From NCBI RefSeq assembly GCF_000702445.1, contig NZ_JNIF01000004.1, positions 496,001 to 560,000 on the forward strand: a stretch of DNA of 64,000 bases, given 5' to 3'. Numbering within the stretch: the stretch's first letter is position 1; every line of letters starts with the position of its first letter. The DNA is from Bryobacter aggregatus MPL3 (lineage in GTDB: Bacteria; Acidobacteriota; Terriglobia; Bryobacterales; Bryobacteraceae). Made by a program: the position numbers and the translations under genes. Below are positions 12,885 through 39,305 of the stretch, piece by piece. A model generated the notes under the pieces. The model did no database searches. It was not told where the DNA came from and saw only the letters and a list, made by a program, of their open reading frames with translations.

Positions 12885-14458
12885 TAGACTTCTCTCCTTT
12901 TGAAACGGTCGATCAGATGTTCGGCGGTCCGTGCGGACAAGGCCATGAAGGTGTGGGTGGGATTCTTCTCCGAAGAGGAAGGCAGAATGTTGCCGCCCAG
13001 GGTATAGAGATTCGCGACATCATGGGTGCGCCCATAGCTATCGGTCACGCTCTTACGCGGGTCCTTGCCCATGATGGTTCCCCCATGTTCATGATTGGGC
13101 CGCGGCTCCTGGTACACCTGATGGATCTCCGCGCCGGCGGCCTCGAGAATCGCAACCGATTGCCGCTGCATATCGCGAAACAGCTTCATGTCATTCTCAT
13201 TCCAATAGAGGTAACGCCGTACCTCCGGTAGCCCGAACTTGTCCTTCTTCGCCGGATCGAGATCAACATAGCTCTTCTCGTCCGGGGTCTTCTCACCATA
13301 GGGAGAAAAGACAAAATAAGACGGATAGCGTTCCTTGACAGCGGCTTTGAGCGATTGACCCATCCCCGGCAAATTGCGCGCCCAGCCCACGCTGCGCCGG
13401 TTCTGATAGTTGAACTGCGCGCCCCAACTGCGGGCATAATCGCGCTTGCGAGTGTGCATGAAGCTAGGCAGATAGGCATGATCGAGAAAGCCCTCATCGT
13501 TGACGACCGGTTTCCCCTTCATTGCAGTCAGGAAGGCTTCGACGCCGCCCGTGAAGTGCGGCATGAAGTCGCGTCCCAGACGTCCTGAGGAGTTTGCCAG
13601 TCCAGTTGGATAGCGCGACGATTTCGATTGCAACAGCAGCGACACATTCTGGACGCAGGCGGCGGCTAGCACGACAATCTTGCCGTGCACCTCGCCGGGC
13701 TGCAGTGTCGTGCGATTCAGGAACTTGACGCCAGTGACGCGGTTCTCGCTGTTTACCGGAATGTCATAGACGACGCTATCCATCTGCAGCGTGATCTTGC
13801 CGGTCTTCATCAGCGGACGCATGTGGCCGTCCCAGGAGTTGTACTTGGCCGCGACATCGCAGCCGGCCATGCAGTTGCCGCAATAGTGGCAAGCCGGGCG
13901 TCCAAACTTCGGGCGGGTGAGCGTACTCTTGCGGACATGGATCACCTTCATGCCCAGCTTGGCCGCGCCGCGTTGGATGTAGAGGTCGGAGCACTTCATT
14001 GGCGCGGGGGGCAGAAAGATGCCATCGGGCAAATCCTCAAGACCGTCAAGGTTCCCGCAGACGCCCACTTCGCGCTCGATGCGCTCATAATAGGGCGCCA
14101 GATCCTGGTACTTGATCGGCCAGTCATAGCCGACACCCTCGCGCGTGTAGCCTTCAAAGTCGCGTGGACCAAAGCGCCAAGCCACTGCATTCCACAGCAT
14201 CGATTTGCCGCCGAGCCCGCGCGAGCGCTCGGTATCGAAGCCGGGTTTGTTGTTCCGCATTTTGGGGATGGCGCGATTCGGAAACTCGAAGGGCATCGCA
14301 TGGGTGTTGAAATCCGTGCGCGTCTCCACTTTCGGGCCGCCTTCCACCACGCAGACATTCACGCCTGCTCTGGCCAGGTGAGCTGCGGCGGTACCCCCGC
14401 AAGCCCCCGAGCCGACAATCACCACATCATAGACTTCTTTCGCCATTTGGGTCTTCAT
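12884..14458 (-). CDS. GMC-family FAD-dependent oxidoreductase (sugar dehydrogenase large subunit)
   Basis: A 524-residue flavoprotein. The N-terminal FAD-binding loop is YDVVIVGSGACGGTAAAHL, and the C-terminal GMC segment contains GGTIMGKDPRKSV followed by the NLYTLGGNILPSSSEKNPT signature. It lacks its own signal peptide, in keeping with export together with the downstream small subunit. It contains a Cys cluster (CHYCGNCMAGCD, about 250 residues in) that may be structural. ATG at 14458 is chosen over a longer frame because the preceding 52 residues are Arg-rich and unlike the family. Likely substrates are glucosides, polyols or aldoses. It is first in a three-gene operon. Confidence 0.88.
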   Translation of the reverse strand: MKTQMAKEVYDVVIVGSGACGGTAAAHLARAGVNVCVVEGGPKVETRTDFNTHAMPFEFPNRAIPKMRNNKPGFDTERSRGLGGKSMLWNAVAWRFGPRDFEGYTREGVGYDWPIKYQDLAPYYERIEREVGVCGNLDGLEDLPDGIFLPPAPMKCSDLYIQRGAAKLGMKVIHVRKSTLTRPKFGRPACHYCGNCMAGCDVAAKYNSWDGHMRPLMKTGKITLQMDSVVYDIPVNSENRVTGVKFLNRTTLQPGEVHGKIVVLAAACVQNVSLLLQSKSSRYPTGLANSSGRLGRDFMPHFTGGVEAFLTAMKGKPVVNDEGFLDHAYLPSFMHTRKRDYARSWGAQFNYQNRRSVGWARNLPGMGQSLKAAVKERYPSYFVFSPYGEKTPDEKSYVDLDPAKKDKFGLPEVRRYLYWNENDMKLFRDMQRQSVAILEAAGAEIHQVYQEPRPNHEHGGTIMGKDPRKSVTDSYGRTHDVANLYTLGGNILPSSSEKNPTHTFMALSARTAEHLIDRFKRREV

Positions 14459-14540
14459 CCTATCGCAATCTTTAGGACGATGAGCTCTTTTGGCTCTCCG
14501 TGGCGCTTGTTGAAAGAAGGGCTTACACTGCAGAGCAAAC

Positions 14541-16607
14541 ATGTCTAGATTTCTTCCGATCCTCCTTCTCCTCGTCACCGCTCTGGGCGCGCAACGGAGA
14601 GACGGTATCGTCAAGCGCGACCTGATCCTGGCGCCGAACGAAGTGGACTATCAGAGTTCCGTCCGCGTCCCTCGTGGCTATGCGGTGATCGTGGGCGTGA
14701 GCCGCTATGCGAACCTACCGGCTGAAGCGCAACTGCGCTTCTCCGAAAGTGACGCACGAAATGTTTACCAGACCGTCATTTCACGCGAAGGCGGCCAGAT
14801 CGAACCGGAGAACGTCAAAACGCTCTTCGGCGCAGATGCGACGAAGGCAAATATCACCAAGGCGATCGAGGAGTGGCTACCCAGCGTTGCCCAGGAGGAC
14901 GATCGTGTCATTGTCTTCTTTGCCGGCCACGGCTTTGTCTACCAAGGCAAAGGCTATCTGGCTCCCTACGACTTCTCCTTTGAACACACCGCCGACACCG
15001 GTTATGACATGGCGCGCCTGGGCGATGTCCTGGCAAATAAAGTCAAAGCTCGCAACAAGATCTTGCTGACCGATGCCTGCCATTCCGCAAAGATTCTGCC
15101 CGGCCTCAGTTCCAAGCAGATCAACGATCAGTTCAAGATGCTTCCCGGCAATTTCTTTACGCTCGCCTCAAGCCGCGAGGCGGAATCGAGCTACGAGGAT
15201 CCTGATCTCGCCAATGGTTCCGGTGTCTTCGCCTACTTCCTGGTGCAAGGTTGGAAGGGGCAAGCCGATGTCGATCCGGAAGATGGCATTGTCACTGCCG
15301 ATGAGCTGGTGCAGTATGTGCGCAGCCAGGTGCGTCAATACGTCAAGGCGCGTGGCAACTCGCAGAATCCTCAGGAAAGCGGCAACTTTCCGGCGGACAT
15401 GACGCTCGGCTTTTTGCCGCAACGCCGCGAAAAGGTTAAAAACAACGCGGCTCCGGCCAAGGACGGCACCATCATCGTTACCACCAACCTCGAAGATGTC
15501 GAGGTCTATGTGGATGGGAACCGGATCGGGAAAGTGGGCGCTTCGAAGAAGCTGGTGATCCCGGGCCTGTCGAATGGGGAGCATGAGGTGCGCGGAGAGC
15601 GCCAAGGCTATGATCCGGCGTTGCGGATGGTGACGGTCCGCCCCGGTCAGGAGATTACCGTCGATCTCCGTATCCAGTTCCAACGGCGGATCGGCGAGGC
15701 GGCCAAGCAGGAGTTTCAAAAAGGGCAGGCCATCTATGCACGCCGGAAGAGCAGTGCGGAACTCCAGTCGGCAGCTGAAGATTTTAAGAAGGCCCTGAAG
15801 CTCGAACCGAAGTACAGCGAGGCCGCCGAGTACCTCTGTCTCACCGAGCAAGTGCTCGGACACACAATGGAAGCGGTGAAGGCGTGTAAAAAAGCCGTGG
15901 AACTCACGCCTGACGGCACTGAATTCCGTACCTATTACGCCTCGGTGCTCACCGAGATGGGCGATTCGAGTGAAGCCATCCGCCAACTCACCAGCGTGCT
16001 CGAACGGGATCCGAAGCGAGCGGAGGCCTATGTCATGCTCGGCGACGCCTATCTGTTTGCACAGGACTTCCAGAAGAGTGAAGCCGCAGCGACAAAGGCT
16101 CTGGAACTGAATCCCAAGGACGCCCGCGCTTACCTGTTTCGGGGCGACGCCCGGCGCTTTCAGGAGCGCTACCCCGAGGCGATGGGCGACTATCTCAGCT
16201 ACCTGCGCATCAATGATTTTCGCGCCCCAGTTAACGAAGTTCTGGGATATTACCTGATTGGAAGTGGCTTGAGCAAGCGGAATGTCGGGCAAAAGAAGGT
16301 CCACGAGATCCAACAATGGAGCGCCTGGTTCGGGGTCTGCGATGCGGCTCGTGGCATGGATGAGTATGCCAAGGCCATTTCTGCCTGTGACCGCGCCTTG
16401 AAGCTGGATGCCAAGGACGCCGGCACCTATTATTTACTCGGCAAAACCTACACCGAGTGGTTCGACCAGAAGAACACGCGCCAGAATCTGCTGAAGGCCG
16501 AAGAGAACATCGCCATGGCGCTTCGTTTGAACCCCGACTTTGAATTCGCCAAGGAAGCCAAGCGGCAACTGGTCGCCATTCGCGAATTAAAAGGCGTCGT
16601 GAAATGA
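14541..16607 (+). CDS. Exported caspase-like (C14) protein with PEGA and TPR domains
   Basis: A 688-residue protein with signal peptide MSRFLPILLLLVTALGA. Residues about 46-285 are a caspase-fold peptidase: GYAVIVGVSRY starts the fold, the catalytic His is His130 in FFAGHGF and the Cys is Cys180 in LLTDACHS. A PEGA domain follows at about 310-377 (VEVYVDGNRIG, then GEHEVRGERQGY), then five or more TPR repeats to about residue 680. Both dyad residues are present, so it may be an active cysteine peptidase (metacaspase/orthocaspase-like) in the periplasm. It is followed by genes for Ig-type surface proteins. Its substrate is unknown; the PEGA and TPR parts suggest anchoring and protein-protein contacts. 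Confidence 0.88.
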   Translation: MSRFLPILLLLVTALGAQRRDGIVKRDLILAPNEVDYQSSVRVPRGYAVIVGVSRYANLPAEAQLRFSESDARNVYQTVISREGGQIEPENVKTLFGADATKANITKAIEEWLPSVAQEDDRVIVFFAGHGFVYQGKGYLAPYDFSFEHTADTGYDMARLGDVLANKVKARNKILLTDACHSAKILPGLSSKQINDQFKMLPGNFFTLASSREAESSYEDPDLANGSGVFAYFLVQGWKGQADVDPEDGIVTADELVQYVRSQVRQYVKARGNSQNPQESGNFPADMTLGFLPQRREKVKNNAAPAKDGTIIVTTNLEDVEVYVDGNRIGKVGASKKLVIPGLSNGEHEVRGERQGYDPALRMVTVRPGQEITVDLRIQFQRRIGEAAKQEFQKGQAIYARRKSSAELQSAAEDFKKALKLEPKYSEAAEYLCLTEQVLGHTMEAVKACKKAVELTPDGTEFRTYYASVLTEMGDSSEAIRQLTSVLERDPKRAEAYVMLGDAYLFAQDFQKSEAAATKALELNPKDARAYLFRGDARRFQERYPEAMGDYLSYLRINDFRAPVNEVLGYYLIGSGLSKRNVGQKKVHEIQQWSAWFGVCDAARGMDEYAKAISACDRALKLDAKDAGTYYLLGKTYTEWFDQKNTRQNLLKAEENIAMALRLNPDFEFAKEAKRQLVAIRELKGVVK

Positions 16608-21677: not shown

Positions 21678-22745
21678 ATGTTTCGTGGGCGCAGCCTGAC
21701 ATGGATTGTGCTGGTCGTGCTGAGTGCACTACTAGCCTATGGCTGTTTTCTCGTTTTGCGGCCTTTTTTTGCTGAAATTTTTCTGGCGACAGTGCTCGCG
21801 ATCGTCTTTTTCCCAATCCACTCCTGGCTGGTCCGGAAGACGAAAAGCGACAACCTCGCCGCCTGGATCAGTACACTTGGCGCAGGGCTCCTCTTTCTGT
21901 TTCCCCTCACCATGCTCGGAATCGTTCTCAGTCGCGAGGCCCGCCATGCGGTGGATGCCATGAGCGCCGCCATCGGACCCTCCGGAAGCTTGGAATGGTT
22001 TGACCGCGCCGTAAATTTTCTCAGTGACCAACTGGGCTGGGACCCCGCGCAGACCCAGGATTTCCTCAAGAGCAAACTTTCCGGCATCGGAAGCAGCCTG
22101 CTGTCGAATGCCGTCAAAAGCCTGCAGGGCCTTGGTTCCTGGCTCTTTTCGAGCATTACGACGCTCGTGACGATGTTCTTTCTCTTCCGCGGCGGATCAA
22201 AATTTCTGGAGGAGAGCAAGTCCTGGGTGCCACTGCCTCCTGACATGATGGACATCCTGTTTGCGGAAACACGCCTGCAGATTTTCGCTAATGTCTACGG
22301 GGTAATTTCTGTTGCCGTTGCACAGGGCACGCTCACCGCAATTGGTTTTGCTCTGTGTGGCCTGCCGTCTGCGATCCTCTGGGGGGCAATGGCGGCACTT
22401 TTCTCAGTGGTGCCCGTTGTGGGCGCTGCCTTGGTTTGGGTTCCGGGCGTCCTTTATCTGGCCGCTTCGGGTACTCTGGGCAAAGCGGGACTGCTTCTCA
22501 TCTGGGGAACTCTGCTGATCAGCATGGCCGACAATGTCATCCGCCCGATTGTGCTGAGCGAAAAGGCGCAAATGAATACGGCGGTGATGTTTTTCGCACT
22601 CCTTGGCGGCATCGACGCCTTTGGTTTGGTCGGACTCTTTGCGGGCCCCATCGTGTTTTCGCTGGCTTTGGCAGTCATCAAATTACTTCGGGAACACAGT
22701 TCGGCTCTTGGTATGAATGTGGAAGTGGAAGGAATTGGAATATGA
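21678..22745 (+). CDS. AI-2E/PerM family membrane permease
   Basis: A 355-residue polytopic membrane protein of the AI-2E transporter family. It has the usual pattern: N-terminal pairs of helices (about 7-45 and 60-80), a soluble loop (about 90-150), and a C-terminal half with the conserved GLPSAILWGAMAALFSVVPVVG region and the DNVIRPIVLS motif. Family members export quorum signals or exchange ions; the cargo here is unknown. Its TGA overlaps the ATG of the lactonase gene (ATGA), so it is coupled to the sugar-oxidation operon downstream, which could point to sugar-acid or ion transport, though this is inference. Confidence 0.87.
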   Translation: MFRGRSLTWIVLVVLSALLAYGCFLVLRPFFAEIFLATVLAIVFFPIHSWLVRKTKSDNLAAWISTLGAGLLFLFPLTMLGIVLSREARHAVDAMSAAIGPSGSLEWFDRAVNFLSDQLGWDPAQTQDFLKSKLSGIGSSLLSNAVKSLQGLGSWLFSSITTLVTMFFLFRGGSKFLEESKSWVPLPPDMMDILFAETRLQIFANVYGVISVAVAQGTLTAIGFALCGLPSAILWGAMAALFSVVPVVGAALVWVPGVLYLAASGTLGKAGLLLIWGTLLISMADNVIRPIVLSEKAQMNTAVMFFALLGGIDAFGLVGLFAGPIVFSLALAVIKLLREHSSALGMNVEVEGIGI

Positions 22746-23824
22746 AAAAAGAAATTGGATTGATCGGTGTGATGGCGATGACTCTGCTTGCTGCCGACCG
22801 CACTGCGTATATCGGAACCTACACCAAGCCGCAAGGCAGCAAGGGCATCTACATGGTGCGCTTCGACGAGGCCACCGGCAAACTCTCCACTCCTGAGCTG
22901 GCAGGGGAGAGCGAGAGTCCGTCTTTCCTCACCCTGAGCAAGAATGGCAAGTTCCTTTACGCTGTCAACGAGATCAACAATGGAGACGTCAGTGCCTTTG
23001 CCATCGAGGCGAATGGCAAGCTCCGTTTCCTGAATAAGGCGAAGTCGAAAGGCGATGCTCCCTGCCATCTCAATCTGGATGCAACCGGCAAATGGATTGC
23101 TGTCGCCAACTACACCAGCGGCACGGCGTCCATCCTTCCTGTCGGCGCCGATGGCAAAGTTGGCGAAGCTGTCGCCACGGTGCAGCACACGGGGAAGGGA
23201 AGCAATCCCCGGCGTCAGTCCAGCCCGCATGCCCACTCGGTAAACTTCTCCAAGGACAACACACTTCTCTACATCGCCGATCTTGGTCTCGATCAGGTGA
23301 AAGTCTATTCCTTCGACGCGAAAACCGGCAAGATCGCGGAGACGGCCCAGCTCGTCACGCCCAGCGGCGCCGGCCCCCGTCACCTCGCCCTCTCCTCCAC
23401 CGGGAAGGCCTATGTCATCAACGAAATGGCAAGCAGCGTCAGTGTCTTCAACACGGCCACCCATCAGCTCATTGAAACCGTCTCGGCGCTGCCCGCCGAC
23501 TACAAAGGCGACACCAGCGGCGCTGAAATCGTTCTACATCCCAAAGGCACCTTGCTCTTCAGTTCCAATCGCGGGCACGATAGCATCTCGATCTATCGCG
23601 TCAATCCCTCGAACGGCACGATCAAGCTGCTCGGCCAGCAGCCCGTCGGCGGCAAAGTGCCGCGCGGCTTTGTCCTGACGCCCGACGGCAACTTCCTGAT
23701 TGCTGGCGCGCAGAACTCAGACAAAGTCTTCGCCTTTAAAGTCGATCTGGCGGCTGGCAAACTCATTCCCAGCGGGGACGCGGTTTCCGTCGGAATGCCC
23801 GTCTGCATCCGCTTTGTAAAGTAA
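22742..23824 (+). CDS. Exported lactonase (6-phosphogluconolactonase/YbhE family beta-propeller)
   Basis: A 360-residue seven-bladed propeller lactonase. Hallmarks are AYIGTYTKPQGSKGIY at the start, the blade phrases SPSFLTLSKNGKFLYAVNE and PCHLNLDATGKWIAVANY, and HAHSVNFSKDNTLLYIADLG. Unlike the cytoplasmic enzyme it begins with a plausible signal peptide (MKKEIGLIGVMAMTLLAA), so the substrate is probably an unphosphorylated lactone made outside the cytoplasm. Start at the ATGA overlap with the permease; the longer frame upstream only covers permease sequence. A dehydrogenase small subunit and a GMC dehydrogenase follow, which fits hydrolysis of the lactone made by that enzyme. Confidence 0.87.
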   Translation: MKKEIGLIGVMAMTLLAADRTAYIGTYTKPQGSKGIYMVRFDEATGKLSTPELAGESESPSFLTLSKNGKFLYAVNEINNGDVSAFAIEANGKLRFLNKAKSKGDAPCHLNLDATGKWIAVANYTSGTASILPVGADGKVGEAVATVQHTGKGSNPRRQSSPHAHSVNFSKDNTLLYIADLGLDQVKVYSFDAKTGKIAETAQLVTPSGAGPRHLALSSTGKAYVINEMASSVSVFNTATHQLIETVSALPADYKGDTSGAEIVLHPKGTLLFSSNRGHDSISIYRVNPSNGTIKLLGQQPVGGKVPRGFVLTPDGNFLIAGAQNSDKVFAFKVDLAAGKLIPSGDAVSVGMPVCIRFVK

Positions 23825-23836
23825 AAGGATTCCCCA

Positions 23837-24349
23837 ATGAAACGACGTTCCGTTCTCTATTCCCTCCTGGGCGTGGCGCCTGCCGCCCTCGCCTGGCAGG
23901 ATACTGTTCCCAATATTCCAACTTCTGCGGCCGATGGCGTCGCCATGGGGCTCCCGCGCTTCTTTTCTCCGGCCGATCTCAAATCATTCCAGGAACTGGG
24001 CGAGACGCTCATTCCTGCTTTCGATGGCCGTCCCGGTGCGCGTGAAGCAGAAGCGGCTGAGTTCCTCGATTTCCTGCTCGCACAAAGTCCAGCCGATCTT
24101 CAGACTCTCTATCGCAGCGGAGTGGCTACCTGGAATCTACGCCGGAAAGCGGGTAATGCTGCTGCGCTCAAGGAACTTTCCGAGCCCTGGACCTACAAAG
24201 GCTCCTCGACGAGCTATGGCAAGTTTCTGCATGCCGCCAAGCTTGCTTTCCACCAGGCGACTGTCAATTCCCGGCAATGGGCTGAAGCAATGTCGACAAG
24301 AAGCCGTTCTGCCGCTGGCATCGGCGCCTTTTGGCTCCCCACAGAATAG
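23837..24349 (+). CDS. Gluconate 2-dehydrogenase subunit 3 family protein
   Basis: A 170-residue small subunit. The N-terminus, KRRSVLYSLLGVAPAALAW, is a Tat-like twin-basic leader. The FFSPADLKSFQELGETLIPAFDG segment (about 41-63) is the family signature, followed by helices such as AEAAEFLDFLLAQSPADLQTL. It would form a complex with the GMC subunit encoded 9 bp downstream and provide its export signal. It is a distant paralogue of the small subunit at 12339-12884. Subunit order here is small then large, opposite to that operon. Confidence 0.82.
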   Translation: MKRRSVLYSLLGVAPAALAWQDTVPNIPTSAADGVAMGLPRFFSPADLKSFQELGETLIPAFDGRPGAREAEAAEFLDFLLAQSPADLQTLYRSGVATWNLRRKAGNAAALKELSEPWTYKGSSTSYGKFLHAAKLAFHQATVNSRQWAEAMSTRSRSAAGIGAFWLPTE

Positions 24350-24358
24350 GATCTCCGA

Positions 24359-25921
24359 ATGAAGCAACAAACTGACGTACTGATCATCGGTAGCGGCGCA
24401 AGTGGCGGTATGGCCGCGCACACTCTCACCAAGCTGGGAGCCAAATGCGTCATGCTCGACGCCGGTCCGCTGATCGATCCTGAAAAGCAAAAAGTCCTGC
24501 GTCCTGTCTCTGACCTCCCCTATCGCGGTTTTGGCAAGCCGGGCCGCTTCCCTCATGTCACCCAGGCGAATGAATTCTCGGCCAACATGTGGGCCGACGA
24601 AAAGCTGAATCCCTACACTTACGATCCGGCCGATCCTTATTACTGGGTGCGAATCCGCCTCATCGGGGGCAAGACTCTCGCCTGGGGCCGTGCCTCCTGG
24701 CGTCTCAGCGATTACGAGTTCAAGTGCAAAGATCATGATGGCTTTGGGGACAACTGGCCCATCGCCTACAAGGATCTCGCTCCCTTCTACGACCGCGTGG
24801 AGCCGATCTTCCGCGTGAGCGGCCGCAAAGAAGGCTTCGATCAGATTCCCGATGGCAACTTCCTTCTGGACGAATCAAAGGACAGCGAATGCGTGAAGCG
24901 TTTCCTCGAGAGCTGCCGGAAGTCCAATGTTCCTACGACAAAGCAGCGCCGCAGCACCGGTACCCTGGCCAGCAGTCTCAATCTGCTGATTCCCGCTGCG
25001 ATGGAAACCGGCAACCTCACGCTCGTTCCCAACGCAGTGGTGCGTGAGCTGAGCTATGACCGCAAGACTGGCCGCGTGACCGGTGCCCATTTTGTCGATC
25101 GCATCTCGAAGCGTGAGTACCACATCACGGCAAAGGCCGTCATTGTCGGCGCGTCAACGCTTGAGTCCACCCGCATCCTGCTCAACAGCAACATTGCAAA
25201 CTCCAGCGGCACGCTTGGCCACTATCTCTTCGATCAGTTCTATGTCAAGAACGTCGTCCAGGCCGTTGTTCCGGAAGCCCGCGGCGGCAAGGCCAGCCGG
25301 TCTCTGATGGGCGGTGGCGGATACATTCCGCGTTTCCGCAACCTCAAGTCCAAAGAGAAGAACTTCATCCGCGGCTACGCCTACGATTTCGGCAGCGGTG
25401 GCAGCCTGGGGCCGCAGTACTTCTCCAGCTACGGCGAAGATCTCTGGAAGAAAATGGCAGACACCCAGGGTAGTGGTTTCAACCTCACCGCGATGGGCGA
25501 AGTGCTGCCGCGCAAGGAGAATGCGGTTCGCATCAACAAGCTGAAGACTGATGCCTGGGGCATTCCTGTGCTGCATATCCAGCACAAGTACACCGACAAT
25601 GAGTTCAACATGGCCAAGGACGCGATGAACACTGCCGATGAGCTGTGCCGCGCCTCCGGCTTTGAAGTCATCGCGAAGCACTGGGAGATGGTGCCGCCTG
25701 GGGAGAGCATCCACGAGTTGGGCACCTGCCGCATGGGCTCTGATCCCAAAACCAGCGTCCTCAACCAATGGAACCAGTCCCACGACGTGAAGAACCTCTT
25801 TGTCGTCGACGGCAGTTCCTTTGTCAGCGGTGGCTCGCAGAATCCAACCCTGACGATTCTTGCGCTGTCCATGCGCGCCAGCGAATATCTTCACGATCAG
25901 ATGAAGCAGGGAGCCTTATGA
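24359..25921 (+). CDS. GMC-family FAD-dependent sugar dehydrogenase, large subunit
   Basis: A 520-residue flavoprotein. The FAD loop is [19 protein letters not shown] at the N-terminus, [19 protein letters not shown] is the second GMC signature, and the C-terminus carries [12 protein letters not shown] and [19 protein letters not shown]. It has no signal peptide, consistent with piggy-back export by the small subunit. It would oxidise an aldose or glycoside to a lactone or 3-keto sugar. Its TGA overlaps the ATG of a pentahaem cytochrome gene, the probable electron acceptor. Confidence 0.9.
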
Positions 25922-26391
25922 GGTTGTTCCTGCTTCTGGTGATCGCGCTCGGGGTTCAGGCGGCTGATCCGCCCAAGCAGCCCATTGCCTTCAGCCACAA
26001 GCAGCACGCAGGGGAGCTAAAACTCCCCTGCGCCACCTGTCACGTCAATCCTGCGCCAGGGGAGATGATGACTTTCCCGGTGGAATCAAAATGTATGACT
26101 TGCCACCAGGCGATCAAGACAGATTCCCCTGAAATTCAGAAGCTCGCAAAGTTTGCAGCCGACAAAAAACGCGTCCCTTGGACACGTGTTTATCAGGTGC
26201 CCACGTTTGTCTTCTGGAGCCACAAGGCGCATCTCGATGCCGGTGCGAAATGCAGCGACTGCCATGGGGAGGTGGCTACCCTCACCTTGATGTCCAAGGA
26301 GAAGGAAACCAGCATGGGCGCTTGCATGGAATGCCATCGTCAGAAGAAAGTCTCTAACGACTGTAGCTTCTGCCACGAGAAGCTGAACTAG
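25918..26391 (+). CDS. Periplasmic pentahaem cytochrome c
   Basis: A 157-residue protein with signal peptide [15 protein letters not shown]. Five CxxCH sites: CATCH (38-42), CMTCH (59-63), CSDCH (112-116), CMECH (136-140) and CSFCH (149-153). Several additional His residues (His27, His30, His102, His105) could be distal ligands, as in class III/cytochrome-c7-like proteins. Start at the ATGA overlap with the GMC gene; the longer reading inside that gene is rejected. It most likely takes electrons from the FAD dehydrogenase. Its stop overlaps the convergent truA gene by 4 bp. Confidence 0.87.
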
Positions 26392-27164: not shown

Positions 27165-27803
27165 TTAATCGATCAGACCATGCCGCAGGGCAAATCGCAC
27201 GAGTTCGCTCCCAGAATGTAGATTTAGCTTCTCCATGATGCGTCCCCGATGGGCCTCCACCGTGTAGACGCTCAGGTTCAGCGTATTCGCAATTTCTTTG
27301 TTTGTCTTGCCTTCGGCGATCATCTGCAGCACTTCCCGTTCGCGGCTGCTCAGCAGGTCGATTGGATCCTTCACATGCTTGCGGTAATCCACCAACACCG
27401 CATCGGCGACAGCTGGACTGAGATAACCCTCCCCGCGTGCGACGGCGCGTACCGCATTCAGGAAATCATTCTCCACCGCGTCCTTCAGCAGATAGCCAAC
27501 GGCCCCCGCGCGTAGAATCTCGCGCACGTACACCGAATCGCGATGCATGCTCAAGGCGAGAATCCGGATCCGCTCATTCATCTCGAGGATTCTTCTTGTC
27601 GCCTCGATCCCGTTTAACTCCGGCATCGAGACATCAATCACCACGACATCGGGCTTGGTCTTCTCTGCCATCTCGATCGCCTCGCGGCCATTTGCAGCTT
27701 CCGCCACCACTTCGAAATCCGGTTGTGCGGACAGGATCATGCGAAAGCCCTGTCTCACGACGGAGTGGTCATCAGCCAGCAAGATGCGCATTTTGCGGTT
27801 CAT
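27165..27803 (-). CDS. NarL/FixJ-family response regulator
   Basis: A 212-residue regulator. The receiver domain (about 5-120) has the acidic pair Asp11-Asp12, phosphoacceptor Asp57 in VVVIDVSMPELNG, the Ser in ALSMH and Lys in YLLKDA. The LuxR-type HTH (about 150-210) reads LSSREREVLQMIAEGKTNKEIA. It is encoded just after its sensor kinase, overlapping it by 32 bp, and is its probable partner. Target genes are unknown; the efflux genes starting at 29237 diverge from this operon and are plausible candidates. Confidence 0.92.
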   Translation of the reverse strand: MNRKMRILLADDHSVVRQGFRMILSAQPDFEVVAEAANGREAIEMAEKTKPDVVVIDVSMPELNGIEATRRILEMNERIRILALSMHRDSVYVREILRAGAVGYLLKDAVENDFLNAVRAVARGEGYLSPAVADAVLVDYRKHVKDPIDLLSSREREVLQMIAEGKTNKEIANTLNLSVYTVEAHRGRIMEKLNLHSGSELVRFALRHGLID

Positions 27804-29112
27804 GTGCTTGTTCTTCCTCTGTGAGTGCCGGCTTCAACGGCACGGTCACCTCAATGGTCAATCCACCAGATGGACTCTGCTTCACCGCGAGATCGCCGCC
27901 AGCCTGGCGCGCTCTGGCACGCATTCCGATCATACCGATGGACGGAGCCTTCCGGCCCTGAAACTCTTTCAACCCCTTGCCGTTATCCCGGATCTTGAGC
28001 CTGACTTCGTCATCGTCGCTGAGCAGCGAGACATCGGCCCCATCCGCACCCGAATGGCGCGCGATGTTGGTCAGCGCCTCCTGCGTAATCCGGAACAGAT
28101 GCGTTTCCGTCTCGTCCACCAGTCTCACGTCCAGGTTGGAATGGAACTTCACTGGAATTCTGGTGCGCTCGGTGAAGCGTTCGCACAACCATTGCAGGCC
28201 CGCCGGCAGTCCAAAGTCATCAAGAATGACTGGCCGCAGGAGCTGCGACAATTCGCGAACATTTCCGATCGATTCGTCGAGCAGATGAATGCATTCCTGC
28301 CGTCTGGAATCGAACTGGTCCGTCCTCATCCCCAATAACATTGCCTTCAATCCGGTCAGCGATTGTCCCAGCTCATCGTGCATCTCATGGGAGAAACGCC
28401 GGGCGGATTCCTCCTGGCCCTGCAGCATCTGCCACGAGACTTTGTTGATTTCGGCAGACTGCCAGGCGAGCCGGTCCAGAAAGCGAATGGTCAGCCAGAT
28501 GGTCAGCATCGCGCAAGCCAGCGCAACCGCTAAAGATCCGCCCAGTAGCAACATAAAACCGCGCGAAAGCTCTTCGCTCTGAGTATCGATGTGACTTTCA
28601 ATGGCAGCCGACTGGTCGGCATCGTTCTTCAGAATGCTCGTTGCCAGTTGCACGAGTTGCAGGTTAATATCTACTAACTTTGCGAGCTCTTCTTCCTTCA
28701 CCTTCGGCTGTGCGGCGACCCGGTGAATTTCCTGCGCGAAGACCTTCGACAAACGCAATAACTCCCCAGAGGAGTCTCGTAGTTCCTGGGTGCTCGAAGT
28801 CTGCTCGATTTCGCGCATCCGCACCTCGGAATCATGGATTTCCGCCAGAATCTGGTCGGCATTCCCAGGGCTGATGCCTTTGCGCTGGTAGATCAGCAAC
28901 AACAGACTTCCCAATCTTTGTTGTTCCAATTCGACACGATCGAGCAAGGATTCATGCGCGATATGCTCGGTCACCAGTTCGCCAATGCTTTCGTGGATCC
29001 GTTGGCTACGGGTGATTCCCAGATAAGCCACAATGGCCAGCAGTCCGATGACGAGAACAAAGCCTACACCTAGGACCGAGAGAACTCCCCGACGCTGTTC
29101 AAACAAAGACAT
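27772..29112 (-). CDS. Membrane sensor histidine kinase (NarX/DegS-like, HisKA_3)
   Basis: A 446-residue kinase with two membrane helices (about 12-32 and 185-208) enclosing a roughly 150-residue helical periplasmic sensor of four-helix-bundle type. The phosphoacceptor is probably His245 in RRFSHEMHDELGQSLTGLK, the HisKA_3 pattern. The HATPase domain (about 345-440) has TNIARHSGADGADV and LKIRDNGKGLKEF. ATG at 29112 preferred; a TTG at 29148 would add 12 residues without a better ribosome-binding site. The ligand is unknown, but the adjacent divergent metal-efflux genes suggest envelope or metal stress. Confidence 0.9.
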   Translation of the reverse strand: MSLFEQRRGVLSVLGVGFVLVIGLLAIVAYLGITRSQRIHESIGELVTEHIAHESLLDRVELEQQRLGSLLLLIYQRKGISPGNADQILAEIHDSEVRMREIEQTSSTQELRDSSGELLRLSKVFAQEIHRVAAQPKVKEEELAKLVDINLQLVQLATSILKNDADQSAAIESHIDTQSEELSRGFMLLLGGSLAVALACAMLTIWLTIRFLDRLAWQSAEINKVSWQMLQGQEESARRFSHEMHDELGQSLTGLKAMLLGMRTDQFDSRRQECIHLLDESIGNVRELSQLLRPVILDDFGLPAGLQWLCERFTERTRIPVKFHSNLDVRLVDETETHLFRITQEALTNIARHSGADGADVSLLSDDDEVRLKIRDNGKGLKEFQGRKAPSIGMIGMRARARQAGGDLAVKQSPSGGLTIEVTVPLKPALTEEEQAHEPQNAHLAG

Positions 29113-29236
29113 GGCGCTCAAGTACCAGTTTGCTTTGCTTTCTTGCAAATAGCTATCCCAGTGATTTGGGCGATCTCATACCCTCTTGAAGCGAGTGCCA
29201 ATCCCGCTCATTTGGGTCAACCTGATAGACGAATTA

Positions 29237-30505
29237 ATGCGTTTCCTCACTCTCATTGCGATGGTGCTGGCTCTCAGCCGATCCACTCTTCTCGCACAGC
29301 CGTTCACGCTGGAGGCTCTGATTGACGAGTCGATTCGAAACAATCTGTCACTGAAGGCAGAACGTTCGAATTTAACCATTGCGGAGGCGCGTCAGATAAC
29401 CGCCGCACTGCGCCCCAACCCGATTCTTTCTCTCGGCGTCCAATACTTGGACATCCTCGGCACACACTTTGGCCCGACGAACAACGCCGGTCCTGCAGAG
29501 TATGATCTCCGTACCGACTTTATCCTTGAAGGCGGCAAGAAGCGCACTCGCCGTATCGAGCTTGCTGCGGAGGATCGCCGTCTGGCGGAGTTGAACTTTC
29601 GCGAGAGTCTGCGCGGCCTGATCGTTGATGTCCAGTCCGCTTTTGTCGATGTGCTTTTCCGCATGGATGGCTTGGCGCTTGCTGAGGAGAACCGCAAGAA
29701 CTTCCAATCGCTGGTCAGCATCAATGAAACCCGGGTGAAGAACGGCGATCTGGCGCAGGTGGAACTCGAGCGTTCGAGGATTGCCGCCCTCCAGTTCGAC
29801 AACGCGATCCTCCAGGCGCAGTCGGATCTGCTGCAGGCAAAGTATAAGCTGCAGCAGTTACTGGGGCGCCAGGAGGCGTCCGATCATTTTGAAATTACTG
29901 GCGAACTGCGCCGCGACAAGTTGCAAGCGACGCGTGAGGAGATCTACCAGCGCGCCCTGCTGCAGCGGCCAGACTACCTGGCCATGCAGCAGTTGCTGAT
30001 TCGCAATCAGGCCGACCTGCGCCTTCAGGTTGCGAATGGAAAGATCGACTATACCGTCGGCGCCGAGGCCAGACGGCAGGATGGTTATGCCGGCCGGGGC
30101 AACTCGATGGCTGTCTTCCTGACAATGCCTCTGCCCGTCTTCAATCGCAATCAGGGTGAGATTGCCCGAGCTTCACGTGAAGGAGACCAAACCAAGTTCC
30201 GCGTGGATGCCATGGCCAATCGCATCCAGTCTGAAGTTCGGATGGCGTGGCAACAATATGAGTCGGCCACGGCTCTCCTCAATCGAATAGAAGGCGATAT
30301 GCTGAAGCGCGCTGAAGAAGTGCGAAAGACCACAGATTACAGCTATCGTCGCGGGGAGGCGAGTCTGGTGGAATTGCTCGATGCCCAGCGTGCTTTTAAC
30401 GACACGCGGCAGAGCTACAACGAGATGCGTGGTGCTTATGCGCGAGCGTTGTACCAGTTGGAATCGATTGAAGCAAAGAATGTAGCGGAAGGTGTGAAGA
30501 AATGA
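29237..30505 (+). CDS. CzcC/TolC-family outer-membrane efflux protein
   Basis: A 422-residue outer-membrane channel component with signal peptide MRFLTLIAMVLALSRSTLLA. The OEP repeat is visible twice: FTLEALIDESIRNN with IAEARQITAALRPNPILSLG near the start, and IQSEVRMAWQQYESATALL with YRRGEASLVELLDAQRAFNDT near the end. It is closely similar in phrasing to the minus-strand CzcC at 36945-38192. ATG at 29237 begins the leader. Its stop overlaps the ATG of the adaptor (ATGA). No pump gene follows this pair; the nearest is the convergent CzcA. Confidence 0.87.
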   Translation: MRFLTLIAMVLALSRSTLLAQPFTLEALIDESIRNNLSLKAERSNLTIAEARQITAALRPNPILSLGVQYLDILGTHFGPTNNAGPAEYDLRTDFILEGGKKRTRRIELAAEDRRLAELNFRESLRGLIVDVQSAFVDVLFRMDGLALAEENRKNFQSLVSINETRVKNGDLAQVELERSRIAALQFDNAILQAQSDLLQAKYKLQQLLGRQEASDHFEITGELRRDKLQATREEIYQRALLQRPDYLAMQQLLIRNQADLRLQVANGKIDYTVGAEARRQDGYAGRGNSMAVFLTMPLPVFNRNQGEIARASREGDQTKFRVDAMANRIQSEVRMAWQQYESATALLNRIEGDMLKRAEEVRKTTDYSYRRGEASLVELLDAQRAFNDTRQSYNEMRGAYARALYQLESIEAKNVAEGVKK

Positions 30506-31671
30506 AGAAGGCCTGTTTAATCGCAGCCGTGCTCTCCGGGCTCAGTGGCTGCTCGAAACAGACAACTGAGGCCCATACAGCCCCGCCCAGTGCGGCGGCT
30601 TCGATCGAAAGATCGACACCAGGGATCGTCAGGATCGATCCCAACTCGCCGAAGTTCAAACTCATCCAGTTGGAAACGGTCGGCGAAGCAGAAGTTCCTC
30701 TCAATGAAGTGGTTTCTCCGGGAAAGGTGGAAGCCGATCAGAATCGCGTCTCTCAAGTCGTATTGCCCGTTGCCGGCCGCATCGTTACTGTAGAGGCGCG
30801 CATTGGCGACTATGTGCGCCAAGGGCAGCCCTTGTTCTCGGTGGAGAGTCCGGATGTGGAGTCGGCTGTCGCCAACTACCTCCAGGCGCAGGCGAGTGTC
30901 GCACAATCCCGGGCTGCGCTCAGCAAAGCGCAGGCGGACTATGACCGCTCCAAAGACCTCTTCGAGCACAACGCGATTGCAAAGAAAGAAGTCTTGTCTG
31001 CGGAGAGTCAGTTCAAGCAGACAGAAGCGCAATTGGATCAAACGCTGGCCATTGTCCAGCAGTCCAAGCGGCGTCTTGAGTTGCTCGGTGTCAAGCCGGG
31101 AGAGTTCAACCAGAAGGTAATCGTGCGCGCCTCCATTTCCGGCAAGGTGATGGAAATGAGTGTCGTGCCCGGTGAGTTCCGCAACGACCTTTCTGTCCCC
31201 TTGATGAAGATCGCCGATCTATCGACGGTCTGGGTGACGGCGGACGTTCCGGAAACTCAGATTCGCATGATCGACAAAGGGGAACTGGTAGACCTGGAAC
31301 TGGCTGCCTATCCGGGCGAGCGCTTCCGCGGCCGCGTCAAGCAGATCGCCGACACGGTCGATCCCCAGAGCCGTACGGTGAAGGTGCGGGCAGAGATGCC
31401 GAATCCGAATGGGAAGTTGAAGCCGGAGATGTTCGGCCAGATCCGTGAAGTCCAGTCGCTACACAAGTCTGTTGTCATCCCCTCTTCCTCTGCCGTCCTC
31501 GACGATGCCAATAGCTATGTTTGGAAGCAACTGGAGCCAGGCGTTTTCCAGCGCACCTCCGTTGAACTCACTCCCGTCGATGGCAAGCTCTATGCGGTGA
31601 AGAAGGGGCTGCTCCCTGGTGACCGGATTGTCACGGACGGTGCGATGTTGCTAAAGGGGATGGAGCGCTAG
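30502..31671 (+). CDS. CzcB/CusB-family periplasmic adaptor lipoprotein
   Basis: A 389-residue membrane-fusion protein with a lipobox (LSGC, Cys17). The barrel-sandwich half-motifs are QVVLPVAGRIVTVEARIGDYVRQGQPLFSVESP and VIVRASISGKVMEMSVVPGE (read in parts), with an alpha-hairpin from about 105 to 195 (SVAQSRAALSKAQADYDRSK) between them. Beta-barrel and C-terminal domains follow (DLSTVWVTADVPETQI). It couples the outer-membrane channel to an RND pump. It lacks the N-terminal YSCPMHP heavy-metal-binding domain of CusB. A 143 bp region without recognised signals separates it from the convergent metallopeptidase gene. Confidence 0.88.
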   Translation: MKKACLIAAVLSGLSGCSKQTTEAHTAPPSAAASIERSTPGIVRIDPNSPKFKLIQLETVGEAEVPLNEVVSPGKVEADQNRVSQVVLPVAGRIVTVEARIGDYVRQGQPLFSVESPDVESAVANYLQAQASVAQSRAALSKAQADYDRSKDLFEHNAIAKKEVLSAESQFKQTEAQLDQTLAIVQQSKRRLELLGVKPGEFNQKVIVRASISGKVMEMSVVPGEFRNDLSVPLMKIADLSTVWVTADVPETQIRMIDKGELVDLELAAYPGERFRGRVKQIADTVDPQSRTVKVRAEMPNPNGKLKPEMFGQIREVQSLHKSVVIPSSSAVLDDANSYVWKQLEPGVFQRTSVELTPVDGKLYAVKKGLLPGDRIVTDGAMLLKGMER

Positions 31672-31814
31672 TACAAGTTGGATTGGTGCAGCTAGCAGGC
31701 AATAGCCCGGAATCCTCGGTGGAGTCTTGGCAAGACTGAATGTAGGCGATTCTCTCAAGGCTGAATGAATTTTCCCTTGATGCCGGGAGTCCGGCAAGCA
31801 GATGGCGAGTCCAG

Positions 31815-32690
31815 CTAGTTCGTCGCGAAGGTATTGCAGGCGGTCACTTTGCCGGTCTCGTAACCAGTCTTGAACCATTGCTGCCGTTGTGCGGAAGTCC
31901 CATGGGTAAAGCTTTCCGGACGCACTCTGCTGCCGCTCATCTGTTGGATATGATCGTCGCCAACTGCGGACGCCGCGCCGAGTGCTTCATTGATATCCCC
32001 GGCCTCAAGCAGATTCCGCTGGCCGGTTGAGTTCGCCCAGATGCCGGCGAAACAGTCAGCTTGCAACTCCATCAGAACGCTCAACTGCTTCTGGGCACGT
32101 GGATTCTGTTGCTGTGCAATCCGCAACTTTCTCTCAATGCCAAGAATGTTCTGCACGTGATGTCCGATTTCGTGAGCGATCACATAGGCCTCTGCAAAGT
32201 CGCCTGGCGCACCAAACTTACGCTTCAATTCGTCGAAGAAGTTCAGATCGAGATAGACCTTCTCGTCAGCGGGACAGTAAAACGGGCCCATTGCTGCTTC
32301 GGCATCGCCACAACCGCTCCGCACCGCGTCGCGAAATAACACCATCTTCGCCCGGCGATAGGAAACGCCCTGTTGCTCCGGAAGAATCTTCGTCCACGTA
32401 TTCTGTGCATCGTCCAGCACAAAGCTGGAGAACGATTTTAAGGATTCTTCCGCCGCCGTACTTGGACGAGGCGCCCGGCTGCTGGTAACCGGCGCCAGAT
32501 TGCCTCCACCGAGGAAGGGGCTGAGCAGATCAGTCTTAAACACCAGACTCAAAATACCCAGCACCAGAAGCCCGCCAAAACCAACGCGCATTCCTCCGCC
32601 ACCGCCGAATCCCAGTGGCGAACCGCCGCCACCCGTTTCGCCCCTCAGATCTTCGACATCGTCACTTTCGTGACCCTGGTCCCAACGCAT
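31815..32690 (-). CDS. Neutral zinc metallopeptidase (YpfJ family)
   Basis: A 291-residue predicted zinc peptidase. The N-terminal region MRWDQGHESDDVEDLRG is the family opening; a Gly-rich linker and one membrane helix (about 46-68) follow. The zinc site is HEIGHH in AYVIAHEIGHHVQNILG, with ELQADCFAGIWAN as the downstream motif holding the third ligand. The chosen ATG at 32690 removes 26 unlikely residues and lies 19 bp after the CzcA gene, so it is probably the last gene of the CzcCBA operon. Target unknown; an envelope quality-control role is possible. Confidence 0.88.
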   Translation of the reverse strand: MRWDQGHESDDVEDLRGETGGGGSPLGFGGGGGMRVGFGGLLVLGILSLVFKTDLLSPFLGGGNLAPVTSSRAPRPSTAAEESLKSFSSFVLDDAQNTWTKILPEQQGVSYRRAKMVLFRDAVRSGCGDAEAAMGPFYCPADEKVYLDLNFFDELKRKFGAPGDFAEAYVIAHEIGHHVQNILGIERKLRIAQQQNPRAQKQLSVLMELQADCFAGIWANSTGQRNLLEAGDINEALGAASAVGDDHIQQMSGSRVRPESFTHGTSAQRQQWFKTGYETGKVTACNTFATN

Positions 32691-32709
32691 GTTTTCAGCA
32701 CCTCCGACC

Positions 32710-35700
32710 TTAAATCGTAGCGGATTTCTTCCGCCGCGCCACCACATAGTAGAGCGAGGGGAGGGCAAGAAGTGTCAGGAAGAATGTGGAAAGCAAGCCT
32801 CCGACGACTACGGTTGCCAACGGCCGCTGCACGTCCGATCCGATGCCAGTTGCGCGAGCTGCCGGCACCATTCCAAGCAGCGCTACTAGGATCATGAGCA
32901 GCACGGGCCGCATTTGTTTCAAGGCCCCGTTGACCACCGCCTCTTCCAGAGAATCATCGACATTCGGCCAACGCCGGTTGATCTCCGAAACCACCAGGAC
33001 GCCGCTCATCACCGCAACTCCGAATAGACTGATAAAGCCCACCGCCGCGGAGACACTCAGATTGATCCCCCGGATCCATAAGAAGAGAATGCCTCCCACA
33101 AGTGAGAACGGCACATTCAGCATCACCAGCCCGGCGTCGCGGCTCGAGCCAAAGGCGAAGAACAAGAGAACGAAGATGATCGCAATCGTGAGTGGCAACA
33201 CAATCGAGAGCCGTTTGCGTGCCCGCTCCATATTCTCGAACTGGCCGCCCCATTCCACCCGATAACCTTCCGGCAGGCGAATCTTCTGCGCAAAGACTTT
33301 CTGTGCATCTGCGGCAAAGCCACCCTGATCGCGGCCGCGGATATTGGTGCGCACGGCAATCTGCCGCTGGTTCTCACGCCGTGCAATGATGCTCTGGCCA
33401 TTGCGAACTTCGATCTCCGCGAGTTGCGATAGTGGCACTCGTGCCCCATTGCGGGCTGGCACCAGCATGCCGGCGATCGCAGTGGCGTCCACTCTCGCTT
33501 CCGGAGCAAAGCGAACGCTCAAATCAAAACGCCGTTCGCCTTCAAAGATCGCTGAGACAGTACGGCCGCCGATGGCAAGTTCAATCTGATCTTGCACGTC
33601 CCGCACCCGGATGCCGTAGCGCGCCATATTCTCGCGCTGCAATCGAATCATCAATTGCGGCTGTTCGCCTTCCTGTTCAACCCCCGTGTCGGCGGAACCG
33701 CTGACCGTGCGAATCGCGGCCAGGGTTTGGTTGGCCAGGTCCCGGAGGATCTTCAGATCAGGCCCGGTGATAATGACGGCCAGATCGGCGGCTGAACCGG
33801 TGACGGCCTCGGTCACGTTATCGATAATCGGCTGCGTAATGCTGAAGTTTGCGCCGGGAACGTTATCCTGCAGCAGCGTGGCGATATCATTCACCAGCAG
33901 CGCCTTTGTACGCCCTTCCGGCCACGTTTTATAGGGCTTCAGCGTCACCAGATACTCGGTGCGGTTGGGGCCATAGGGATCGGTTCCCGCATCGTTGCGT
34001 CCAGCCTGGGACCCGACGACATTGACCTCAGGGAATTGCTCTAACAAGAGCCGGATCCGGGCCGCCACCTGATCGGACTTCTCAAGAGAAGTGCCGGGTG
34101 GCAGATTGGTGCGCACCCAGATCGTGCCTTCATCGAGCGAGGGCAGAAACTCGCTGCCCAGTGTCGTCGAGATGGCAAAGGCCGCGGCCACAATGACAAA
34201 GGAGACACCTACCGCGATCCAGGGCGCCTTCAAGCTACGCATCAGAATCTTCTCGTAGGCGCTGCTCATCCAGCCGAGCAGCGGGTTGTGCCAGGCGTGC
34301 GCGCCTTTGCGGAACAGGAAGGTCGCCAGCACCGGAATCAGCGTGAGCGCAAGGATCATCGCCCCGAGCAGTGCAAAGCAAACCGTAAACGCCATCGGGG
34401 TAAACAAGCGGCGTTCCACGCGTTCCAGGGTGAACAAGGGAATGTAGGCCGCGATGATAATCAGCAGCGAGAAAAACAACGGATTCGCTACTTCCAGCGC
34501 CGCATTCTTGATCGACGCAAACACTTCTTCCTGATGGTCCTGATGGCCTTCCTCCAGCTTGTGCAGGATGTTCTCCACCATGATCAGAGATCCATCGACA
34601 ATGATGCCGAAGTCCAGTGCTCCCAGGCTCAACAGATTCGCCGGAATTCCTGTCAGGTTCATACAGACGAAGGCGAACAGTAGCGACAGTGGAATCGTCA
34701 ACGCTGTCAGCAGTGCTGCCTTAAAGCTGCCCAGGAAGAGCAAGAGCACCATCACGACAACAACAAGACCTTCGAGCAAGGTCTTCGATACTGTTTCGAG
34801 CGTGTTGTTGACCAGGTCCGTCCGGTCATAGATCGGTTTCATCTCAACGCCACGTGGAAGCCGGGTGCTATTCAACTCGTTGACTGCTTCATGCACCCGC
34901 TTGAGGACATCGGTCGGATTCTCCCCACGCCGCATTAGGACAATGCCTTCGACGCCACCGGAATTCTTGCTCAGGCCAAACGCTCCGGTGGGTGGGGCGG
35001 AGCCGATGCCGACATGCCCAAGATCCTTCACAAAAATAGGCACGCCGCCGTTCTCGGCAACGACGCTGTTCTCGATGTCGGAAGTTGTTTTCAGCATTCC
35101 CACGCCACGCACGGCGAGCGATTGCTGCTTGTTGTCGAGCAAGGCGCCTCCGGCATTCTGATTGCTTTGCGAGACCGCATCGGCCAGGTCACGCAAACTG
35201 ATCTTGTACTTTTCGAGGCCGAGTGGGCTGATCTGGATCTGGTATTGCTTCACCAATCCGCCAAAGGGAACCACGTCGGCGATGCCCGGCGATTGCAGCA
35301 ACCGGGGGGCGATCACCCAATCCTGCAACTCACGTAGTTGCTGCGGGTTCAGTCCGCCGCCTTCGAGGGAATAGCGGTAGAGTTCGCCAATCGGGGTTGC
35401 TAAGGGGCCTAGCGTCGGCGTAACGCCATCGGGAAGCTCCGCATCGCGCAGCTTTTCCAGTACTACCTGCCTCGCAAAGTAGTCGTTGGTGCCGTACTCA
35501 AACGTGAGGTCCACCACTGACAACCCAAAGATGGTGCGGGAGCGTCGTGAGATCAAGCCGGGGGTACTATTGAGCGCCCGTTCAATCGGAACGGTGATCT
35601 GCTGCTCCACTTCTTCGGTCGCCCGGCCCGGCACTACGGTGATGATCTGCACGGCCGTATCCGAAATATCCGGATACGCTTCAATCTTGAGTTGAAACGC

Positions 35701-35790
35701 TGCAGCAAGCCCCACCACAATCAATGCGATTCCAGCAATGATCGTAAAAAAGCGCTGGTCGAGAGCGCTTCGGATCAGCTTTTCAATCAT
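32710..35790 (-). CDS. czcA: Heavy-metal efflux RND pump (CzcA/CusA family)
   Basis: A 1026-residue inner-membrane proton-driven pump. RND features are an N-terminal helix (RFFTIIAGIALIVVGLAAA), EAYPDISDTAVQIITVVPGR, and the charged TM4 motif DFGIIVDGSLIMVEN, whose Asp/Asp/Glu spacing is the heavy-metal (HME) signature. TM10-12 contain GVAVMSGVLVVSEIN and MRPVLLMILVALLGM. It exports divalent or monovalent metal from the periplasm or cytoplasm through the adaptor and channel encoded upstream. The ion (Zn/Co/Cd/Ni or Cu/Ag) is not settled by motifs I can read. It is the only RND pump in the window although two channel-adaptor pairs exist. Confidence 0.92.
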   Translation of the reverse strand: MIEKLIRSALDQRFFTIIAGIALIVVGLAAAFQLKIEAYPDISDTAVQIITVVPGRATEEVEQQITVPIERALNSTPGLISRRSRTIFGLSVVDLTFEYGTNDYFARQVVLEKLRDAELPDGVTPTLGPLATPIGELYRYSLEGGGLNPQQLRELQDWVIAPRLLQSPGIADVVPFGGLVKQYQIQISPLGLEKYKISLRDLADAVSQSNQNAGGALLDNKQQSLAVRGVGMLKTTSDIENSVVAENGGVPIFVKDLGHVGIGSAPPTGAFGLSKNSGGVEGIVLMRRGENPTDVLKRVHEAVNELNSTRLPRGVEMKPIYDRTDLVNNTLETVSKTLLEGLVVVVMVLLLFLGSFKAALLTALTIPLSLLFAFVCMNLTGIPANLLSLGALDFGIIVDGSLIMVENILHKLEEGHQDHQEEVFASIKNAALEVANPLFFSLLIIIAAYIPLFTLERVERRLFTPMAFTVCFALLGAMILALTLIPVLATFLFRKGAHAWHNPLLGWMSSAYEKILMRSLKAPWIAVGVSFVIVAAAFAISTTLGSEFLPSLDEGTIWVRTNLPPGTSLEKSDQVAARIRLLLEQFPEVNVVGSQAGRNDAGTDPYGPNRTEYLVTLKPYKTWPEGRTKALLVNDIATLLQDNVPGANFSITQPIIDNVTEAVTGSAADLAVIITGPDLKILRDLANQTLAAIRTVSGSADTGVEQEGEQPQLMIRLQRENMARYGIRVRDVQDQIELAIGGRTVSAIFEGERRFDLSVRFAPEARVDATAIAGMLVPARNGARVPLSQLAEIEVRNGQSIIARRENQRQIAVRTNIRGRDQGGFAADAQKVFAQKIRLPEGYRVEWGGQFENMERARKRLSIVLPLTIAIIFVLLFFAFGSSRDAGLVMLNVPFSLVGGILFLWIRGINLSVSAAVGFISLFGVAVMSGVLVVSEINRRWPNVDDSLEEAVVNGALKQMRPVLLMILVALLGMVPAARATGIGSDVQRPLATVVVGGLLSTFFLTLLALPSLYYVVARRKKSATI

Positions 35791-35793
35791 TCT

Positions 35794-39299: not shown

Positions 39300-39305
39300 C
39301 GCACC

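Follow-up and report, generated by a model that had tools for sequence, protein, structure and literature searches.

The nearest solved relatives of the dehydrogenase described here are fructose dehydrogenase (FDH) and the FAD (flavin adenine dinucleotide)-dependent glucose dehydrogenase of B. cepacia (BcGDH), which act at C5 of fructose and at C1 of glucose, respectively. In BcGDH, residues Cys212, Cys218 and Cys222 are described as holding a 3Fe-4S cluster through which electrons travel from FAD to a multihaem subunit (PMC6719666). We analysed a 64,000-nucleotide stretch from Bryobacter aggregatus MPL3 (contig NZ_JNIF01000004.1, positions 496,001 to 560,000; hereafter the window), taken from a host genome of 5.75 Mb in 4 contigs, and found an operon that shares with the FDH and BcGDH complexes a GMC catalytic subunit with its His/Asn pair, a PF13618-type small subunit with a Tat-like leader and a multihaem c-type cytochrome as partner. 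We consider it probable that the small subunit, the GMC enzyme and this five-haem cytochrome act together as a periplasmic dehydrogenase, and that its ActA-type cytochrome was recruited from alternative complex III (ACIII).

Five genes on the + strand fill positions 21678-26391 (Table 1), and the operon is confirmed both by the coordinates and by Pfam families. The junctions measure -4, +12, +9 and -4 bp in gene order, each negative value being an ATGA overlap: the permease gene ends 4 bp into the lactonase gene, and the cytochrome start overlaps the GMC stop. An earlier note on this DNA had described the genes from lactonase to cytochrome as tightly packed, had read them as a dehydrogenase module with a small subunit and a GMC enzyme, and had pointed to a five-haem rather than a three-haem partner. 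The last three junctions, the Pfam families together with the Tat-type leader of the small subunit, and the five CXXCH motifs of the neighbouring gene bear out these descriptions. As judged by eye, the leaders of the lactonase and the cytochrome are Sec-like, that of the small subunit is Tat-like (MKRRSVLYSLLG), and the GMC enzyme is leaderless. There is no three-haem cytochrome at the operon, where the neighbour has five motifs; the rest of the genome was not searched for one. A TruA-type gene, assigned by Pfam, is convergent to the cytochrome gene. Beyond the earlier note, we find that the pentahaem cytochrome is an ActA homologue, that the iron-sulfur relay of the solved enzymes is missing, and that the same type of cytochrome accompanies other dehydrogenases.

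The window cytochrome is 157 amino acids long and contains exactly five CXXCH motifs, as do all 144 cytochromes that were read (copies included). Its top matches in a sequence search are ACIII chains (8k9e_A, E 1.1e-29; 6f0k, 1.5e-24; 6btm, 1.9e-21; 6lod, 6.6e-17). When its predicted model (pLDDT 90.5) was searched with Foldseek, the same four chains were the sole PDB entries at E<=0.001, with Z scores of 11.6-13.8 and root-mean-square deviations (rmsd) of 4.8-5.1. By sequence and predicted fold, then, the pentahaem is a homologue of the ActA subunit of ACIII. A Geobacter-type c7 identity was rejected, given that such chains reach E-values of only 8e-6 (3ov0) to about 0.3 (0.04 to 0.3 for PpcA) versus 1.1e-29 for the ACIII chain. 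Two further homologues in the genome (L016/L047 and L017/L048; 33-34% identity) adjoin ActB-type genes.

The GMC subunit is closest to fructose dehydrogenase in both sequence and predicted fold. A profile built from 42 relatives finds the large subunit of FDH in the PDB at 7.2e-73 and BcGDH at 2.1e-64, while an AlphaFold2 model (pLDDT 91.2) superposes on FDH with a Z score of 46.2 (rmsd 3.1, 480 aligned) and on BcGDH with a Z score of 38.3, the latter level with the pyranose 2-oxidases, which reach about 37. Residues His452 and Asn495 are invariant in the 42 GMC sequences and line up with the His/Asn pair of FDH. The alignment with FDH also reveals that the cysteine-bearing stretch of that enzyme faces no residues in the window GMC family. 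A C-x5-C-x3-C motif is kept at the loop site in seven alignment rows, which include Bacteroidetes relatives and a paralogue from the same genome (L051). We counted this motif among GMC homologues of at least 450 amino acids (77 distinct, 82 with copies): 16 of the 77 have the motif without a pentahaem, 50 have a pentahaem without the motif, none has both, and 11 have neither, although among these 11 L073 has a pentahaem by tblastn and L076 stops at a contig end. The position of the FAD-linking histidine (His105 of BcGDH) is occupied by Ala108 in the window GMC, and by histidine in 1 of the 42 rows. A second GMC gene in the window (12887-14647, - strand) keeps C-x5-C-x3-C, and there is no CXXCH-bearing open reading frame (ORF) on the same strand within 1.5 kb of it.

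Of 69 listed loci with a relative of the GMC enzyme, the analysis covered 60 acidobacterial ones drawn from genome_contigs (L055-L114, including some same-genome pairs such as L069 and L095). The small subunit lies 5' of the GMC gene in 56 of the 58 acidobacterial loci with 700 bp available upstream, and the pentahaem gene lies 3' of it in 49 of the 56 with 700 bp available downstream. A Tat-like motif is present in 36 of 41 small-subunit-like ORFs, a set itself chosen by a motif. The small subunit has no match in the PDB (best E 0.8). The lactonase stands beside the GMC gene in 7 of the 60 loci (L055-L059, L107 and L109), all of them close relatives, or in 5 of 51 when the count is limited to loci with at least 2.5 kb upstream. 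The AI-2E permease occupies the same place in 6 of the 60, namely six of the seven lactonase loci, and was not found in the seventh, L055. The conserved unit is therefore small subunit-GMC-pentahaem, with the lactonase and the permease as genus-level additions, and these counts rule out either one as a core part.

This distinction changes two of the claims made earlier. An exported lactonase does appear to lie beside the GMC gene, as judged from its Sec-like leader (seen by eye) and its PF10282 assignment, but lactone hydrolysis falls outside the conserved function because so few GMC loci, all close relatives, have a lactonase. Likewise, the upstream permease is coupled to the lactonase by their 4 bp overlap, but this coupling is of genus level only. 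Given that the lactonase is present in few loci and the permease in fewer, the module as first described is one lineage's elaboration of a more widespread module.

The cytochrome has matches at 1e-20 in 115 of 121 genomes of the family, many of which have several. We classified 106 loci, comprising the 30 best matches and 76 further rows chosen down the ranked list rather than at random; the rows left out are mostly 32-38% identical and are presumed to be the ActA of ACIII. Partner types were found by inspecting neighbours, and a gene counted as a partner if it shared the strand of the cytochrome and lay no more than 300 bp away. Among the matches listed, five dehydrogenase families together adjoin the pentahaem in 88 of the 106 loci: GMC (42), pyrroloquinoline quinone (PQQ) propeller (28), flavin mononucleotide (FMN) dehydrogenase (11), GSDH (4) and FAD-Rossmann (3). 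Representative partners were assigned by Pfam to PF01011, PF01070, PF07995, PF13450, molybdopterin/Fe4S4 and COX2. At least two of the five enzyme types occur in 23 of the 60 genomes behind these loci, and three types occur in 3 of them, while the window's own genome has the GMC type alone. Chance adjacency was ruled out by a distance control on 59 loci (L124-L183, about +/-6 kb), in which 50 partner matches lie within 300 bp versus 5 farther away (2 at 300-1500 bp, 1 at 1500-3000 bp and 2 beyond). Many partner enzymes start with Tat-like or hydrophobic leaders, although several starts are mis-called, those of the FMN enzymes especially. Related bacteria thus appear to attach this ActA-like pentahaem type to several unrelated enzymes. 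Among the papers listed, judging by titles and abstract openings and with bioRxiv preprints outside the scope, we met no published description of a pentahaem-dehydrogenase pairing.

Some details of these loci deserve mention in their own right. FMN-dependent dehydrogenases lie directly 3' of an ActA-like pentahaem gene in L131, L133, L135, L136, L138, L141, L147, L148, L152, L157 and L174, and some of them carry Tat-like leaders. A response-regulator-like gene follows the pentahaem directly in L124, L125, L127, L130, L145 and L159, with or without a GMC gene; Pfam assignments stand behind only the regulator of L130 and the kinase that follows the regulator in L125. The taxonomic labels of L100 (VFZE01000069.1, Acidimicrobiia) and of L121 (CAMCBY010000007.1, Klebsiella pneumoniae), which holds a remote GMC relative, are doubtful.

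Partner type also tends to follow cytochrome phylogeny. On a quick tree of 88 of the 121 distinct cytochromes, from which roughly half of the rows linked to GMC enzymes had been thinned out and the L183 sequence (with an internal stop) had been dropped, the partner labels require 17 changes versus a mean of 48.1 for shuffled labels, and a value as low was reached in 0 of 200 shuffles. Each of the GSDH, FAD-Rossmann and ACIII labels is confined to a single group and the FMN rows require three changes, while the partnerless rows are unclustered.

Several observations weigh against the interpretation of these genes as one dehydrogenase with a recruited cytochrome. Two loci (L060 and L061) have GMC-pentahaem pairs with no recognisable small subunit upstream, 7 of the 56 GMC loci with 700 bp downstream are without a pentahaem, and a paralogous locus in the same genome (L002, with a 64% identical GMC) has the small subunit and no cytochrome. 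The mutual exclusion of the iron-sulfur motif and the pentahaem may reflect one single evolutionary event. Among the 106 loci, the remaining neighbours are ActB (4), COX2 (1) or none recognised (13), and the loci used to define the partner families also served to count them. The GMC and PQQ labels require seven changes each on the cytochrome tree, and 26 of its 85 inner branches are open. Since the tool warned of long branches, either recruitment or loss occurred repeatedly, or the tree contains local errors. Finally, in a phylum-wide sample of 119 genomes, 25 (the window's own included) match the cytochrome at 1e-32, and of 19 such loci that were read, 15 have an ActB-type gene within about 1.5 kb (some weakly matched), the others being 3 with PQQ enzymes (L185 weakly) and 1 with a GMC enzyme. 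This sample is compatible with cytochromes of this type having arisen in ActA-ActB operons and having multiplied later in the family studied here; departure from ACIII is the direction of evolution that we infer.

Table 1. Positions of the operon genes and of selected sites, numbered from the first letter of the window.
Feature	Position	Strand	Family match or remark
AI-2E family permease	21678..22745	+	AI-2E_transport PF01594, E 2.6e-46 (Pfam); probably outside the redox function
Lactonase, 7-bladed beta-propeller, Sec-like leader	22742..23824	+	PF10282, E 5.5e-111
Small subunit, Tat-like leader	23837..24349	+	Gluconate_2-dh3 PF13618, E 1.6e-6, 28.9 bits (cut-off 23.4)
GMC FAD dehydrogenase catalytic subunit	24359..25921	+	GMC_oxred_C, 6e-24; GMC_oxred_N, 8.1e-8
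Site of the 3Fe-4S cysteine loop of fructose dehydrogenase, none here	24950..24958	+	About residues 198-200 of the GMC
ActA-like pentahaem c-type cytochrome, short Sec-like leader	25918..26391	+	Cytochrome_C7, 6.6e-12
Haem motif 1, CATCH	26029..26043	+	Invariant among aligned relatives
Haem motif 2, CMTCH	26092..26106	+	Invariant among aligned relatives
Haem motif 3, CSDCH	26251..26265	+	Invariant among aligned relatives
Haem motif 4, CMECH	26323..26337	+	Invariant among aligned relatives
Haem motif 5, CSFCH	26362..26376	+	Invariant among aligned relatives

If the small subunit, the GMC enzyme and the pentahaem do constitute one periplasmic dehydrogenase, its assembly and operation would probably proceed as follows. 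The small subunit would allow the leaderless FAD enzyme to hitchhike, its Tat leader carrying the folded partner across the inner membrane, while the pentahaem would be exported on its own and then loaded with five haems. The GMC subunit would oxidise a hydroxyl group on a sugar or one of its derivatives. Electrons from FAD would pass directly to the ActA-like pentahaem, bypassing the 3Fe-4S relay on which fructose and FAD-dependent glucose dehydrogenases rely. From there they would enter the respiratory chain, most likely through a cytochrome c or a cytochrome c oxidase. A haem-copper oxidase is suggested as the acceptor by L126, where genes for a pentahaem, COX2 and COX1 lie in a row (3047-6009, - strand), although this is a single case.

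The same gene row could be taken to mean that the pentahaem works on its own as a carrier of electrons in the periplasm and merely shares an operon with the dehydrogenase, and the 13 loci lacking a recognised partner are consistent with this view. However, the occurrence of such cytochromes beside five dehydrogenase families and the grouping of partner types on the tree argue for a dedicated partner, and we regard the independent carrier as quite improbable.

Retaining the interpretation as a dehydrogenase complex, the identity of its product must be considered, and this need not be a lactone, since the solved relatives act at C5 or C1 and the pyranose 2-oxidases tie by fold. One possibility, which we hold tentatively, is that the enzyme forms keto-sugars by oxidation at C2, C3 or C5, that later steps are of the isomerase/epimerase and Gfo/Idh/MocA types, and that the lactonase is an unrelated neighbour. 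Fructose dehydrogenase is the top match, followed by pyranose 2-oxidases and C-glycoside oxidases. Furthermore, a xylose isomerase-like TIM barrel gene (PF01261) lies before the small subunit in L067 and is found beside the remote GMC of L116, and PF01261 and Gfo/Idh/MocA genes lie slightly behind the operon in L058, L059 and L109. These neighbours, which lean slightly towards keto-sugar chemistry, are inconstant, and neither the substrate nor the oxidised carbon can be read from sequence. In L058, L059 and L109 the two genes are located a little behind the TruA-like gene. The window has relatives of both about 11 kb away (PF01261 at 38256-39299, followed at 39306-40451 by the Gfo/Idh/MocA-type relative), and between the TruA-like region and this pair, within 27165-40451, are response regulator, histidine kinase, outer-membrane efflux and HlyD-type genes.

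Alternatively, the GMC enzyme might act on an aldose at C1 to form an aldonolactone in the periplasm, whose ring the lactonase would then open. The adjacent lactonase of the Bryobacter lineage leans towards such C1 oxidation. Scoring 371 bits, this leader-bearing protein far outranks every other PF10282 match in the genome (the runner-up has 37), its residues 21-358 align to profile positions 1-344 as a full-length 7-bladed propeller, its leader is also visible in six relatives inspected, and its solved relatives include PpgL (3.2e-47), named a periplasmic gluconolactonase. The C1-acting BcGDH is, moreover, the second-closest solved enzyme by sequence. However, FDH matches the GMC better than BcGDH does, and the restriction of the lactonase to so few of the acidobacterial GMC loci also speaks against this chemistry, which we judge rather unlikely. 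For the preferred dehydrogenase complex, the lactonase would be an addition in the Bryobacter lineage, opening a lactone should an aldose be the substrate and C1 its site of oxidation.

More broadly, the pentahaem family would have left ACIII to be recruited beside at least five unrelated dehydrogenase families. We can speculate, at somewhat less than even confidence, that these escaped ActA-type pentahaems have become general plug-in acceptors of the acidobacterial periplasm. Each copy would serve a single dehydrogenase family out of at least five unrelated ones (FAD-GMC, PQQ propeller, soluble-type GSDH, FMN hydroxyacid and FAD-Rossmann) and would pass electrons to a cytochrome c oxidase, bypassing the quinone pool; in the GMC branch this would have replaced a built-in iron-sulfur relay. 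In acidobacteria, which are abundant as degraders in soil, little is known about periplasmic respiration. If true, this arrangement would provide a simple rule for spotting electron-donating enzymes in their genomes, and would exemplify the re-use of a respiratory-complex subunit as a separate carrier. It would also offer a compact flavin-to-haem wiring, free of an iron-sulfur cluster, for direct-electron-transfer enzymes.

The membrane-bound complexes of Gluconobacter FDH and of BcGDH have both the 3Fe-4S loop and the FAD-linking histidine, whereas the window GMC is without either, and an ActA-type pentahaem stands in place of the three-haem cytochrome that those complexes use. The PF10282 lactonases, such as the 6-phosphogluconolactonase YbhE, PpgL and the Bacteroides protein 3scy, are the same full-length 7-bladed propellers, but the window lactonase differs from them in sitting in a dehydrogenase operon. 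The cytochrome is also homologous to QrcA, the multihaem subunit of menaquinone reductase (NCBIfam NF041781, 1.7e-21), although its score of 76.6 bits is far below the curated cut-off of 180. ActA itself carries an N-terminal membrane anchor and is normally found in an operon with ActB and other subunits of the complex. The window cytochrome, which by sequence and predicted structure has the same five-haem fold, begins with a short, cleavable-looking leader (a hydrophobic stretch, by eye, with an AXA-like site at its end), and it adjoins a GMC dehydrogenase and a TruA-like gene instead of ActB.

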